From assembly GCA_009908385.1 (NCBI GenBank), contig JAAAPE010000039.1, positions 1 through 43,733 on the forward strand: 43,733 bases of DNA, in the 5' to 3' direction. Made by a program: the position numbers and the translations under genes. Below the pieces are notes generated by a model that worked only from the letters and a program-made list of their open reading frames with translations, was not told the origin of the DNA and did no database searches. The stretch comes from Gammaproteobacteria bacterium. Its GTDB lineage: Bacteria > Pseudomonadota > Gammaproteobacteria > Xanthomonadales > Wenzhouxiangellaceae. Below are positions 1 to 7,555 of this stretch, in pieces (within the stretch, counting starts at the first letter, position 1; the number at the start of each line of letters is the position of its first letter).

Positions 1-729
1 AACCTGATCCGGGAAATCTACGTCGAGGAGGCGCGCGAGTACCTCGAGGAACAGAATCCCGATCGCAAGGTGACCCGATCCGCCCTGGCGCTCATCTGCG
101 GCATGGACGGGCGCGCCATCAAGTCCTTCGAGGAGAACACGGATCGTCAATACGCCCCATCGGACGTCTGTTCCGAAGCGGCCATCCTCGAGATGTGGAA
201 CAAGGACGAGTCCTTCTTCGACGCCGCCAGCGACAAGCCGGCCGATCTACTCATCCACGGTCCGCACGGCACCTTCCAGCGGCTGGTGAGCCGGGCCGCG
301 GGACGCGCCGTGACGCCGCAGACCGCGCTGGAGCGTCTGCTCGAGAGCGGCAACGTACGCCTCGTCGACAACGAGACCCGGGTTCGCCTCATCGATCCCT
401 GGTACATGCCGGTCGAGGCCTCCGAGCGCACCGCGATCGAGGCAGGCAGCTTCGCCATCAGCCGGCTCGGCAAGTCGATCCTGCACAACACCAAACGCAG
501 TTCCGAAGTGACGCCCGCGTGGCTGCAGCAGGACCGCTGGTCGACGGGCATTCCGCGCGAGCGGCTGGAGCTGGTTCGAGCCGACATCCGTGCGGTTCTG
601 CAAAAGCACATCGAGCAAGTCGAGGGCTACATGGAACATCAGGAGCACAAACCCTACGAGCGGACCGAGTGTTCGATCGGCGTGGGTTGGTACTACTGGG
701 AAGACGAACAGGGATCAGTCGACGGCTGA
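1..729 (+). CDS. DUF6502-like protein, C-terminal part (5' end outside window)
   Basis: The reading frame is open from base 1, so the gene starts upstream of the window; the GTG at 70 is only an internal candidate and the protein should be longer than 219 residues. The visible part opens with a helical stretch resembling a helix-turn-helix (RSALALICGMDGRAIKSFEE), as if for DNA binding. Further on come VTPQTALERLLESGNVRLVD and, later, GSFAISRLGKSILHN. This arrangement fits the DUF6502 family of uncharacterised gammaproteobacterial proteins as I remember it; no function is established for that family. The stop at 729 lies 51 bases before the repeat protein on the same strand, so the two may be co-transcribed and this protein could regulate it. 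That is inference from position only. Confidence 0.6.
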   Translation, partial: NLIREIYVEEAREYLEEQNPDRKVTRSALALICGMDGRAIKSFEENTDRQYAPSDVCSEAAILEMWNKDESFFDAASDKPADLLIHGPHGTFQRLVSRAAGRAVTPQTALERLLESGNVRLVDNETRVRLIDPWYMPVEASERTAIEAGSFAISRLGKSILHNTKRSSEVTPAWLQQDRWSTGIPRERLELVRADIRAVLQKHIEQVEGYMEHQEHKPYERTECSIGVGWYYWEDEQGSVDG

Positions 730-780
730 TCCAGCGACCAAAGCAACGGCATTCAACTCAAAAGCACCTGGAGAACGGTA

Positions 781-1863
781 ATGATTCAATTGATCGGAAA
801 ATCTGGAACCGGCATCGGCAAGAGCGGAACCGGCATCGGCAAGAGCGGCACCGGCATCGGCAAGAGCGGCACCGGCATCGGCAAGAGCGGAACGGGCATC
901 GGCAAGAGCGGAACGGGCATCGGCAAGAGCGGCACCGGGTCGCGAAGCTTCTGGATGGCCGCGGCGATGTGCGTGGGCCTGACCGGCAGCTTCGCCCAGC
1001 CGGCCCTGGCCGACGGCGAACCGGACGTGAGGGTGATCAGCCAGGGCGAGGTCGTGATGGTTTCCGTCCAGCAGGGCGACGATTTCCTGATCGGCGCGGC
1101 TGCGCTGAACGAACAGTCGGGCGGCTACTACACCATCGAACTCTATCCGGCGGCCGAAAGCGCGGCGGCATTCGGCCAGGCCTCGACCCTGGTCAAGGGT
1201 TCGGGCAGCGGCAACTCCGGTAACTCGGACTGCTCCCCGGGCGCGAGCCTGATGGTCAAGGGTTCGGGCAGCGGCAACTCCGGTAACTCGGACTGCTCCC
1301 CGGGCGCGAGCCTGATGGTCAAGGGTTCGGGCAGCGGCAACTCCGGTAACTCGGACTGCTCCCCGGGCGCGAGCCTGATGGTCAAGGGCTCGGGCAGCGG
1401 CAACTCCGGCAATTCGGACTGCTCCCCGGGCGCCAGCCTGATGGTCAAGGGTTCGGGTAGCGGCAATTCGGGCGAAGCCGCCTGCACGCCGGGCGCCAGC
1501 CTGATGGTCAAGGGCTCGGGCAGCGGCAATTCCGGCGAGGCGGCCTGCGTGCCGGGCGCCAGCCTGCTAGTGAAGGGTTCCGGCAGTGGCAATTCCGGTG
1601 ATGCGGCCTGCCCGCCCGGCGCGAGCCTGATGGTCAAGGGTTCGGGTAGCGGCAACTCGGGCGAGTCGGCCGGGTCGTGCTTCCAGGGCGCCTGGGGCGT
1701 CGCCGAACTGTTGTTCGATGAGGGTGGTGCCAACCTCATCGTGCATCGCCTCGGCAGTAGCGGCTTCGAGGAGTTTCTCGTGGCCTACCTTCCGGGACGC
1801 GCTCCCGTCACCGGAAGTGGTTCCAGCGACTTGGGCAATCGTGGTTTCGTCTCCGTGCCGTGA
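781..1863 (+). CDS. Unrecognised secreted repeat protein with GKSGTGI and 21-residue Cys repeats
   Basis: I do not recognise this 360-residue protein. Residues 6-54 are seven tandem GKSGTGI heptapeptides (the last ends in S). They are followed by a signal-peptide-like hydrophobic stretch, about residues 58-80, ending in PALA before DGEPDV, where cleavage is likely. A short domain (about 80-132) precedes eight copies of a 21-residue unit built on VKGSGSGNSG and usually ending in one cysteine followed by a PG. The last ~60 residues are non-repetitive (AWGVAELLFDEGGANLIVHR...). A GGAG ribosome site lies just before the ATG at 781. A start at Met59 (955) would drop the heptads and leave an almost charge-free signal peptide, so I keep 781, with some doubt. 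Export to the periplasm or surface is likely; function is unknown. A clear terminator follows at 1954-1978. Confidence 0.8.
   Translation: MIQLIGKSGTGIGKSGTGIGKSGTGIGKSGTGIGKSGTGIGKSGTGIGKSGTGSRSFWMAAAMCVGLTGSFAQPALADGEPDVRVISQGEVVMVSVQQGDDFLIGAAALNEQSGGYYTIELYPAAESAAAFGQASTLVKGSGSGNSGNSDCSPGASLMVKGSGSGNSGNSDCSPGASLMVKGSGSGNSGNSDCSPGASLMVKGSGSGNSGNSDCSPGASLMVKGSGSGNSGEAACTPGASLMVKGSGSGNSGEAACVPGASLLVKGSGSGNSGDAACPPGASLMVKGSGSGNSGESAGSCFQGAWGVAELLFDEGGANLIVHRLGSSGFEEFLVAYLPGRAPVTGSGSSDLGNRGFVSVP
796..942 (+). repeat. Seven tandem 21-bp units coding GKSGTGI
   Basis: Seven consecutive 21-bp units (796, 817, 838, 859, 880, 901, 922), all in frame. Differences are almost all silent third-position changes (gga/ggc, acc/acg), with the final Ile replaced by Ser. 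The near-identity suggests expansion by slippage or recombination with the peptide kept under selection. Confidence 0.95.
1180..1662 (+). repeat. Eight tandem 63-bp units coding a 21-residue Cys repeat
   Basis: Units begin at 1198, 1261, 1324, 1387, 1450, 1513, 1576 and 1639, preceded by a partial unit from 1180. Units 1-3 are identical at DNA level, unit 4 differs by a few silent changes, and units 5-8 diverge around the cysteine (NSDCSPG becomes EAACTPG, EAACVPG, DAACPPG, ESAGSC). The gradient from identical to divergent copies suggests recent growth at the 5' side. Copy number is likely to vary between strains. Confidence 0.95.
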
Positions 1864-1953: not shown

Positions 1954-1978
1954 GCCCCGGCTCTGCCGGGGCTTTTTT
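1954..1978 (+). terminator. Rho-independent terminator after the repeat protein
   Basis: GCCCCGGC (1954-1961) and GCCGGGGC (1965-1972) form a perfect 8-bp GC stem with a three-base loop, followed by six T (1973-1978). It ends the plus-strand unit containing the repeat gene. Confidence 0.92.
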
Positions 1979-2540: not shown

Positions 2541-4433
2541 GTGAATCAAGCGACGCCGACAACCCATGAAGCGCTGATCGATCGCATCATCCAGCACGTG
2601 GGAAGACGACTCGTGGTCGGTCTGCCTCTCGGGCTGGGCAAGCCCAATCGCCTCGTCAACGCGCTCTACCGGCGCGCTTGCGCCGATCCGGGCCTGCAGC
2701 TCGAAATCGTCACGGCGCTCTCGCTCGACCTGCCCGAATCGTCGCACTGGCTGGCCGGGCGGCTGATGGATCCGGCCGTGGAGCGCCTGTTCGGCCGGGA
2801 TTATCCCCGACTCGACTACGTGCGCGACCAGCGCGCCGGGCGGGTGCCGGACAACATCAAGGTGACCGAATTCTATTTCCAGTCGGGCGCCGCGCTGGGT
2901 CGTTCGATCATGCAGCGCCACTACGTCTCCTCCAACTACACGCACGTGGCGCGCGACCTGGTCGACCGCGGCATCAACCTGCTCCTCCAGCTGGTGGCCG
3001 GTCCCAGCGACGACCGCTACAGCCTGTCGTGCAATCCGGACGTTACCCTCGACGTCGTCAATCGCCTGCGCGAAACGGCCGACTGGCCGTGGATGGCCGT
3101 CGCCCAGGTGCATCCGGAATTGCCCTTCATGCACGGCGATGCCGTCGTCAATGCCGACTTCTTCGACGAGGTGATCGACCAGGACCCGCAACAGCCGTTG
3201 TTCGCCGTGCCACGCGCGCGCGTTTCGCTTCAGGACCATGCGGTCGGCCTGCACGCTTCCCGGCTCCAGGCCGACGGCGGTACGCTCCAGATCGGGATCG
3301 GGTCGCTCAGCGACGCCCTGGTCAACGCGATGATCCATCGCCACCGCGACAATGCGGCCTACCGTGCGCTGGTCGAGCGCCTCGACGCTCCTGCGGGCGG
3401 TTTCCAGCACCTCGGCCCGTTCGAGGAAGGCATATACGGCGCCAGCGAGATGTTCATGGACGGTTTCATGCACCTGTATCGATCCGGCATCCTCAGCCGC
3501 GAGGTCTTCGACGATCTCGCGCTGCAGCAGCGGGTCAATGCCGGCGAAACCGTCGAGCAGGCGGGAGGGGGCGCGCTCATGGACGGCGGCTTCTTTCTGG
3601 GAAGCGGCGAGTTCTATCGCTTCCTCAGGGAACTCGACGAGGTCGAGCGGCCGCGGTTTCGTATGCACGGCGTCGGCCGAATCAATCAGCTCTACGGCGG
3701 GTCGGAGGCGCTCGAAATCGCCCAGCGACGGCACGCTTGTTTCATCAACACCTGCATGATGGTCACGGCCACGGGGGCGGCGGTATCCGACGGCCTGTCG
3801 GACCACCGGGTCGTCTCCGGGGTGGGAGGCCAGTACAACTTCGTTGCGATGGCCCATGCCATGGATGACGGGCGCTCCGTGCTGATGCTGCGCGCGACGC
3901 GAACCGACGACCGTGGGCGCACTTCGTCCAACATCGTCTGGGAGTATCCGCACACGACCATCCCGCGGCATCTGCGCGACCTGGTCGTAACCGAGTACGG
4001 GGTGGCCGAGCTTCGCGGCAAGACCGACGAGGAATGCATCCAGGCGCTGGTCGGCATCATGGATGCCCGTTTCCAGGACGAACTGGTGGAGCAGGCGAAG
4101 CAGGCCGGCAAGCTGGACCCGGCCTGGCGGGTGCCCGATCGTGCCCGCCGGAACACGCCGGAGCAACTGGCCGGACGCTTCGACGAATGCCATTCGATGT
4201 TTCCCGAGTATCCCTTCGGCAGCGACTTCACGGCGGTCGAACAGCGTCTCATTCCGGCGCTCGAGCGGCTCAAGCGACTGTCCAGCGACAAGATGGCCCT
4301 CCTGCGTGCATTGCTGAAGGGGCGGCCGGCCGACCATCCGGAGGAGCTCGAACGTCTCGGGCTGGCCGATCCGGCGTCGCTCCGGGAGCGGCTCTACGCC
4401 CGGCTGGTGGCCGCGATGCTGGAGGGGGAGTGA
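2541..4433 (+). CDS. Acetyl-CoA hydrolase/transferase family protein
   Basis: A 630-residue member of the family I CoA-transferase/acetyl-CoA hydrolase group, which moves or hydrolyses CoA from acyl-CoA esters such as acetyl-CoA. The N-terminal half starts with a glycine-rich LVVGLPLGLGKPNRLVNALY segment. The C-terminal domain shows GVGGQYNFVAMAHAMDDGRS, SSNIVWEY and VVTEYGVAELRGKTDEE, characteristic of the family. It is longer than the ~500-residue core enzymes; the tail ends in a helical KRLSSDKMALLRALLKG segment. The frame is open upstream to 2235, but homology seems to begin after the GTG at 2541, which has GCAGGA about ten bases upstream; ATG 2499 is the alternative. The exact acyl-CoA substrate cannot be read from sequence. 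Confidence 0.85.
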   Translation: MNQATPTTHEALIDRIIQHVGRRLVVGLPLGLGKPNRLVNALYRRACADPGLQLEIVTALSLDLPESSHWLAGRLMDPAVERLFGRDYPRLDYVRDQRAGRVPDNIKVTEFYFQSGAALGRSIMQRHYVSSNYTHVARDLVDRGINLLLQLVAGPSDDRYSLSCNPDVTLDVVNRLRETADWPWMAVAQVHPELPFMHGDAVVNADFFDEVIDQDPQQPLFAVPRARVSLQDHAVGLHASRLQADGGTLQIGIGSLSDALVNAMIHRHRDNAAYRALVERLDAPAGGFQHLGPFEEGIYGASEMFMDGFMHLYRSGILSREVFDDLALQQRVNAGETVEQAGGGALMDGGFFLGSGEFYRFLRELDEVERPRFRMHGVGRINQLYGGSEALEIAQRRHACFINTCMMVTATGAAVSDGLSDHRVVSGVGGQYNFVAMAHAMDDGRSVLMLRATRTDDRGRTSSNIVWEYPHTTIPRHLRDLVVTEYGVAELRGKTDEECIQALVGIMDARFQDELVEQAKQAGKLDPAWRVPDRARRNTPEQLAGRFDECHSMFPEYPFGSDFTAVEQRLIPALERLKRLSSDKMALLRALLKGRPADHPEELERLGLADPASLRERLYARLVAAMLEGE

Positions 4434-4452: not shown

Positions 4453-4602
4453 GGTCAGTGGTCGGTAGTCAGTGCGTCCGTGGTCAGTGCGTCAGTAGTC
4501 AGTAGTCAGTAGCCGGTGCGGCTGGAGGCCGCTGGCGCCGACCACGGACGCACAGACCACAGACGCACTGACCACTGACGCACAGACCACAGACGCACCG
4601 GC
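4453..4602. repeat. Imperfect inverted repeat of GTCAGT / GACGCAC units
   Basis: The left half is rich in GTCAGT and GTGCGTC, and the right half in their complements (GACGCAC, GACCAC). The 22-base blocks at 4472-4493 and 4562-4583 are reverse complements with one mismatch, and 4472-4484 also matches 4540-4552 perfectly inverted. It could fold into a long hairpin between two convergent genes, perhaps serving as a bidirectional terminator, though there is no T run. The same GACGCAC octamer recurs upstream of hrpA. Confidence 0.85.
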
Positions 4603-7346: not shown

Positions 7347-7427
7347 GGCTGCAAACGGTTCGTGGCGAACGCTCTAGCCTAGCATCGGGAGGTGGGGCGT
7401 GGGTCGTCAGGGGGCCGTGGTCAGTGG

Positions 7428-7517
7428 TCAGTACGTCAGTAGTCAGTGCCTCTGACGCACGGACGCACCGACGCACGGACGCACTGACGCACCGACGCAC
7501 CGACGCACCGACGCACC
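7428..7517. repeat. GTCAGT block followed by eight GACGCACN octamers
   Basis: 7428-7449 holds GTCAGT-type units; 7454-7517 is eight tandem octamers GACGCAC followed by C, G or T. The two halves are partly complementary (GTCAGTGC against GCACTGAC). It sits in the divergent ltaE/hrpA intergenic region, about 40 bases before the hrpA start, so it may influence expression. The unit is shared with the 4453-4602 element. Confidence 0.9.
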
Positions 7518-7555
7518 GACCCGTCCTCACACGCCGATCTGCGAAAATACGCCCG

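Follow-up and report, generated by a model that had tools for sequence, protein, structure and literature searches.

FlgM is an anti-sigma factor that is removed by secretion, and SecM acts as a secretion monitor. The arrangement proposed below would work in a similar way, with an exported partner reporting its own export to a cytoplasmic regulator, but the partner in this case is a protein of the DUF6502 family, and no sigma factor or arrest sequence was identified. In the extended signal peptides of autotransporters (ESPR), a conserved N-terminal extension precedes the signal peptide. The protein described here likewise has an N-terminal extension before its signal-like segment; unlike an ESPR, this consists of heptad repeats, goes with DUF6502 and has no Pfam match. 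VxG-rich repeats also characterise the middle region of CsoS2 (PF12288), a model that the protein does not match; one relative (L036:8001-8759) falls below its cut-off (E = 2.9e-4, 20.8 bits, cut-off 22), which is probably attributable to shared VxG-rich composition. Similarity is also seen to the DUF5666 (PF18914) lipoproteins, which can likewise be encoded directly after DUF6502, appear to be exported and carry GTG in their N-terminal region, sometimes in tandem. These differ in having a lipobox, repeated 60-residue domains and a motif that is C-terminal to the signal peptide, and the protein has no match to the DUF5666 model.

The window, meaning the whole 43,733 nt stretch of DNA that was analysed, is an entire contig of a 2.94 Mb assembly in 155 contigs. 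Its gene at 781-1863 is the second member of a conserved pair, formed by a DUF6502 gene and the gene for an apparently exported protein, and the repeats it contains are copies of a Gly-Thr/Ser-Gly peptide. Comparison with other genomes points to a tag-and-partner system that has previously gone unrecognised. The features of the locus are as follows:

1..729, + strand: 3' part (242 codons) of the DUF6502 gene, from a Pfam PF20112 score of 24.6 bits (below the cut-off of 27) and alignment to the DUF6502 of other loci
770..773, + strand: ribosome-binding-site-like GGAG, 7 nt 5' of the ATG, read directly; the same element lies before most relatives
781..1863, + strand: ORF for a GTG-tagged, apparently exported protein of 360 aa, from its translation and matches in related genomes
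796..939, + strand: seven GKSGTG heptads, N-terminal to the signal-peptide-like segment, from repeat counts and peptide-level conservation
940..1011, + strand: signal-peptide-like segment SRSFWMAAAMCVGLTGSFAQPALA, with an expected cut after ALA, recognised by eye without a signal-peptide program
1012..1155, + strand: first half of a predicted small beta domain, residues 78-125 (AlphaFold2 block pLDDT 79-86, residues 81-120)
1192..1695, + strand: eight 21-residue units VKGSGSGNSG..C.PGASLM, predicted at low confidence and read as a flexible insert, from repeat counts and AlphaFold2
1684..1800, + strand: second half of the predicted beta domain, WGVAELLFDEGGANLIVHR..., residues 302-340 (AlphaFold2 block pLDDT 81-88, residues 301-340; WGxAE conserved in relatives)
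1954..1978, + strand: intrinsic-terminator-like GC hairpin followed by a T run, read directly without a terminator scan

The repeat protein and its relatives

The 360 residues comprise, in order, five residues, the heptads, a signal-peptide-like segment ending ALA-D, about 60 residues, the 21-residue units and a C-terminal stretch from WGVAEL. A first-pass annotation of this DNA had described a secreted protein built from two unrelated-looking tandem arrays, and the arrays themselves are real. Seven copies of GKSGTG are present, although only six extend to GKSGTGI, of which seven had been reported, the last being GKSGTGS; VKGSGSGNSG occurs eight times with a period of exactly 21 residues and one Cys per unit, an additional single Cys being found at residue 64, within the signal-peptide-like segment. 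With 48 and 168 residues respectively, the arrays account for 60% of the protein, in line with the earlier estimate of more than half, and were scored by Tandem Repeats Finder at 233 (21 bp x 6.4) and 651 (63 bp x 7.4). The DNA-level identity of three 63 bp units was likewise confirmed, units 1-3 agreeing at 63/63 bases; relative to unit 1 there are 4 base differences in unit 4, 11-13 in units 5-7 and 22 in unit 8, and recent homogenisation of these units in the window copy is supported. The gene is present in a single copy in the source genome.

As the first-pass annotation had stated, the protein could be assigned to no family: neither Pfam (0 families at E <= 1) nor NCBIfam gave a match, to a described repeat family or otherwise. 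A literature search with the repeat-unit letters found no paper, and neither the repeat protein nor two DUF6502 proteins matched any PADLOC model of anti-phage defence. That the protein is secreted holds in part, as it is apparently exported, but the heptads precede the hydrophobic signal-like segment and are therefore not simply part of the mature protein. The hydrophobic stretch ending ALA-D was seen by eye, and the window gene did not pass the crude hydrophobicity filter described below.

Structure prediction, which had been suggested for the non-repetitive parts, gave confident strands only at residues 82-123 and 306-338 (AlphaFold2 on 10 sequences, block pLDDT 79-88). The pLDDT of residues 1-77 and 126-301 was under 50, and the model as a whole had a mean of 48.2 and a pTM of 0.38. 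The model is read as a single small beta domain with the 21-residue array inserted in a loop, where it is probably disordered. A Foldseek search of the PDB with the beta domain found no match at E <= 0.001. Elsewhere in the window, short-unit arrays at 4453-4598 and 7406-7520 (7-8 and 15 bp, GACGCAC-type) lie near gene boundaries and are unrelated to the repeat protein.

Matches to the repeat protein were found in 37 of 101 related genomes, some of them weak or spurious; L030, for instance, was rejected as a relative, its match being a spurious GIGDWG repeat. In a profile search of the order, 54 of 250 genomes matched at E <= 1e-5, and 49 of these belong to two families: the window's own (25) and one other, termed f8 (24). 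A one-genome-per-species collection contained 37 stretches matching I[EG]KSGTGI[EG], of which 25 encode relatives, from records labelled Wenzhouxiangella, Lysobacterales, Xanthomonadales, Oceanospirillales or unplaced Gammaproteobacteria/Proteobacteria. A viral origin was considered and rejected, as no relative was found among eight viral pattern matches.

The reading frame, whose loss in relatives would have counted against the first-pass annotation, is conserved in them. Their usual layout consists of a short start, heptads of the form I[EG]KSGTG, a hydrophobic segment, around 50 residues, a G-x-G-[ST]-G array with units of 7-21 residues and a C-terminal half; exceptions are L029, without heptads, and L023 and L027, almost without an array. 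GGAG occurs within 25 nt 5' of the chosen start in 26 of 28 listed genes when counted by eye, L028 and L029 being the exceptions. The insert motif is mostly GGGTG in f8 and GSGTG, GNGTG or ATGTG elsewhere, with GSGSG in the window. Between species, the number of heptads ranges from 0 to 7 (23 aligned members) and that of insert units from 0 to 17, counted with the pattern G.G[ST]G, which overlooks variants like the ATGTG of L004; both members of the very similar pair L005 and L006 have five heptads and six insert units. The arrays are hence not unrelated, both repeating an x-G-T-G / G-x-G-[ST]-G motif in relatives. Because of this shared motif, the GTG common to partners of DUF6502 and a codon choice that reflects the peptide, both arrays of the window protein look like multiplied G[T/S]G tags.

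DUF6502 and the GTG peptide of its partners

The DUF6502 gene lies 51 nt upstream of the repeat-protein gene on the same strand. Its 5' end is on another contig of the same genome (C58), the end of which matches window positions 1-129 at 99.2%; the part in the window has no Pfam match other than DUF6502, and no sigma factor was found. Full-length DUF6502 genes of the clade align with that of the window, an assignment made by alignment rather than by scoring each against Pfam. Of the 55 loci L001-L055, 53 have a DUF6502 match; the two exceptions are the spurious L030 and L019, a locus at a contig end whose sequence begins within the array. Identity between the window's DUF6502 and those of other loci is 22-72%, mostly 60-72% in its own genus, taken to be Wenzhouxiangella, and about 31-36% in f8. 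At 24 of 25 loci the spacing was measured, and in all of these DUF6502 precedes its partner gene in the same orientation, separated from it by -4 to 129 nt. The remaining locus, L054, has a short ORF, MFRWMIKKDGTGIEKSCTGIEKSGTGIENSETRIRRNRQKGF, at 3860-3990 (translated by eye), which ends after the heptads just 5' of the DUF6502 gene and is apparently the remnant of a decayed tagged gene. In one genome (G013) a relative of the repeat protein is present, at a contig end, and no DUF6502 was found. By eye, the further neighbours of the pair differ between the window's family and f8.

Sampling of the class found DUF6502 in 75 of 274 genomes, and sampling of the phylum in 10 of 200, one genome (G256) being in both. 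The partners linked to it are unlike one another in sequence, comprising DUF5666 lipoproteins, small proteins and repeat proteins. In the class sample the product of the next gene is often a DUF5666 lipoprotein with a start of the form ...CGGGG..AGGGIGGTGIS.G.ITGFGSIFVNG, an assignment that Pfam bore out in each of the three cases tested; further partners include small proteins and other exported-like ones, for instance ...AAEPDESGIGGTGASKP..., and the tag can also occur in tandem, as in GIGGTGKTSIPGIGGTG. Judged by eye, the leaders include Sec-like, lipoprotein-like and twin-arginine-like forms.

Across all fetched loci, 182 distinct DUF6502 genes with a 3' end were recovered, 146 of them with an exported-like ORF next, as recognised by a crude hydrophobicity filter among ORFs at -40 to +300 nt from DUF6502; this filter, which left 36 genes without such a partner, missed both L125 and the window gene, and some of the loci are cut off by the end of a contig. 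GTG is present within the first 110 residues of 122 of the 146 partners, whereas 300 composition-keeping shuffles gave 27.1 on average and never more than 40, a comparison that overstates significance because members of one family are not independent. When nine tripeptides were compared with shuffles, GTG and GIG were enriched and GGG hardly so, whereas GAG, GSG, GVG, ATG, GTA and GDG were not. Expressed as genes, exported-like partners and tagged partners, the counts are 83, 60 and 50 for relatives, 92, 80 and 68 for the class sample and 7, 6 and 4 for loci fetched through DUF5666, the class loci being the 30 best-scoring matches and 60 further stretches rather than all matches in the class. 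Class-sample partners often have GTG as GIGGTG, and in the phylum sample a GTG-bearing ORF adjoins DUF6502 in 9 of 10 cases, six of them outside the class. The window gene, directly downstream of DUF6502 on the same strand, has GTG seven times in its first 110 residues. Some of the 24 partners without GTG in this region have GSG, GRTG, EGTD, NDGTT or GISVGD; at L201, downstream of a second DUF6502, the partner has no GTG and is built of GISVGD repeats, which may be a divergent tag.

DUF5666 proteins encoded away from DUF6502 served as a control. Among 18 such ORFs with no DUF6502 in the locus, only two have GTG in the first 110 residues, one inside the domain and one probably in the wrong frame, and none has GGTG; three others have no sure N terminus. 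In four genomes compared by eye (G269, G291, G328 and G293), IGGTG is present in the copy after DUF6502 and absent from the unlinked copy, which keeps the lipobox and TGFGS[IV][FY]VNG around a different linker. Similarly, linked copies in G300 and G349 have GETGTG or TEGTG and the unlinked ones do not, G300 also having partners with GSG and IGGTG; the linked copy of G374 has GSG rather than GTG, and both DUF6502 neighbours in G265 are without GTG. A smaller control, from the window and L031-L055, yielded seven exported-like ORFs, one with GTG, too few to use. On balance, the motif appears to follow adjacency to DUF6502 and not the exported fold.

Codon usage shows a signal at the level of the peptide. 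In 36 distinct heptad arrays third positions vary, Ser is encoded by both TCN and AGY and Lys and Arg are exchanged, while in 45 G[IVLF]GGTG motifs the use of Gly and Thr codons is close to that in the rest of the same genes; AGY was found in four of the six GSG variants looked at.

Possible roles of the peptide

The reading favoured here, with a probability of roughly 45%, is that the tag monitors export, being read in the cytoplasm before translocation, most likely by DUF6502, which would adjust expression. The candidate tag peptides are IGKSGTGIGKSGTGI and GGIGGTGI. On sensing an unexported partner, DUF6502 may adjust transcription of the pair, or alternatively hold the precursor until export. 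The tag could stand before or after the signal peptide, because a precursor that has yet to be exported would expose both positions. The heptads of the window protein would then form a multivalent tag that stays inside once the signal peptide is cut, leaving a mature part in which a small beta domain bears a long and flexible G-S-G loop. DUF6502 is possibly a DNA-binding regulator of helix-turn-helix type, with a loose winged-helix resemblance: its AlphaFold2 model has a mean pLDDT of 67.6, and the top Foldseek match was HetR (E = 0.058), followed by others that included MarR-type proteins and Zur, and no match reached 0.001. A sequence search of the PDB gave no match, and a literature search found no paper naming DUF6502.

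More tentatively, G[IVLF]xGTG and I[EG]KSGTG may be forms of a general tag on exported proteins of the Pseudomonadota, read before translocation by DUF6502 in a modular, one-to-one export monitor. Such a tag would be independent of export route, with a dedicated cytoplasmic reader encoded one gene upstream and an exported fold that can be exchanged while the tag is kept. If true, a peptide tag on exported proteins would be tied to a neighbouring regulator-like gene, providing a route to the function of DUF6502. The finding also unites DUF6502 and part of DUF5666, both families of unknown function, with a repeat protein restricted to one clade, in a single system that can be tested through a defined peptide.

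The main rival, which is considered rather unlikely, places the action of the GTG peptide outside the cytoplasm, as a folding turn or as a site of processing, attachment or assembly in a surface or matrix protein, with DUF6502 only a local regulator. It draws on the position of the motif, which in 77 of the 122 tagged partners lies only after the hydrophobic core, near the mature N terminus, and on the length of the G[ST]G inserts, which are C-terminal to the signal-like segment; in addition, an EAL-domain gene precedes the pair in those Wenzhouxiangella loci that were read, a hint of c-di-GMP and surface life. However, the motif is found only before the signal segment in 42 of the 122 (and on both sides in three), and among DUF5666 ORFs it tracks adjacency to DUF6502 rather than the exported fold. 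An improbable alternative is that the protein is a fast-evolving, low-complexity stalk or adhesin, with neutrally expanding repeats and a GTG shared through composition. The identical 63 bp units and the variation in unit number between species would fit, but the heptad peptide is kept while its codons diverge, and GTG exceeds same-composition shuffles where GAG and GSG do not.

There are two further rivals. DUF6502 might bind the repeats as a DNA or RNA element, such as an operator in the 5' coding region with a 21 bp period. Their location at the 5' end of a gene that follows a possibly DNA-binding one (on weak Foldseek support) and a period close to two helical turns are in keeping with this, yet an operator at the DNA level is disfavoured, and judged very unlikely, because the motif shows synonymous variation, swaps between the two Ser codon classes and between Lys and Arg, and near-background codon use. 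Least probable of all is the cysteine ladder of the first-pass annotation, in which the regularly spaced residues form disulfides, bind metal or carry modifications: each of the eight units in the window protein does have one Cys, but across the 23 aligned members the body has between 0 and 8, with none in six, and the array is predicted at a pLDDT below 50. A feedback loop that senses export remains the preferred reading.

Other features of DUF6502 loci

The DUF6502 C terminus was considered as a carrier of the tag itself, an idea prompted by some of the sequences, and rejected, the strict pattern being absent from 57 of 58 seed proteins. A conserved operator before DUF6502 was also rejected, since the region in question is taken up by the end of an EAL-type gene in those Wenzhouxiangella loci that were read. 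Such a gene, resembling those for c-di-GMP phosphodiesterases, ends at the DUF6502 start in L257 (257-1267, - strand), L031-L034, L048 and L051; it was seen in 6 of 8 loci tried and confirmed by Pfam in all three tested, and the ORF before DUF6502 on C58 ends like the EAL-domain proteins of relatives. Second DUF6502 copies without a tagged neighbour are found in Wenzhouxiangella genomes (L139, L140, L141 and L150), 0.6-1.4 kb before a gene resembling window 2541-4433, which is presumably acetyl-CoA hydrolase-like.

One genome of the window's family, G031, has 16 DUF6502 matches, some partial (loci L128-L137). In most of the ten loci that were read, DUF6502 is followed by a different small exported-like partner, which suggests a lineage expansion of the pair. 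These partners are short, mostly with little or no insert, and include some with GTG before and some with GTG after the hydrophobic core; a profile of the C-terminal half matched one at E = 2.8e-7 and three more at 0.017-0.049. In f8, nine loci were aligned over the region some 150 nt ahead of DUF6502. Three of them (L035, L041 and L043) have a perfect inverted repeat, ACTTGnCAAGT, and the remaining six have either an imperfect copy or none, weaker forms being seen in L036, L037 and L040. Together with TATCCTAT-like letters, this block is a candidate promoter or operator.
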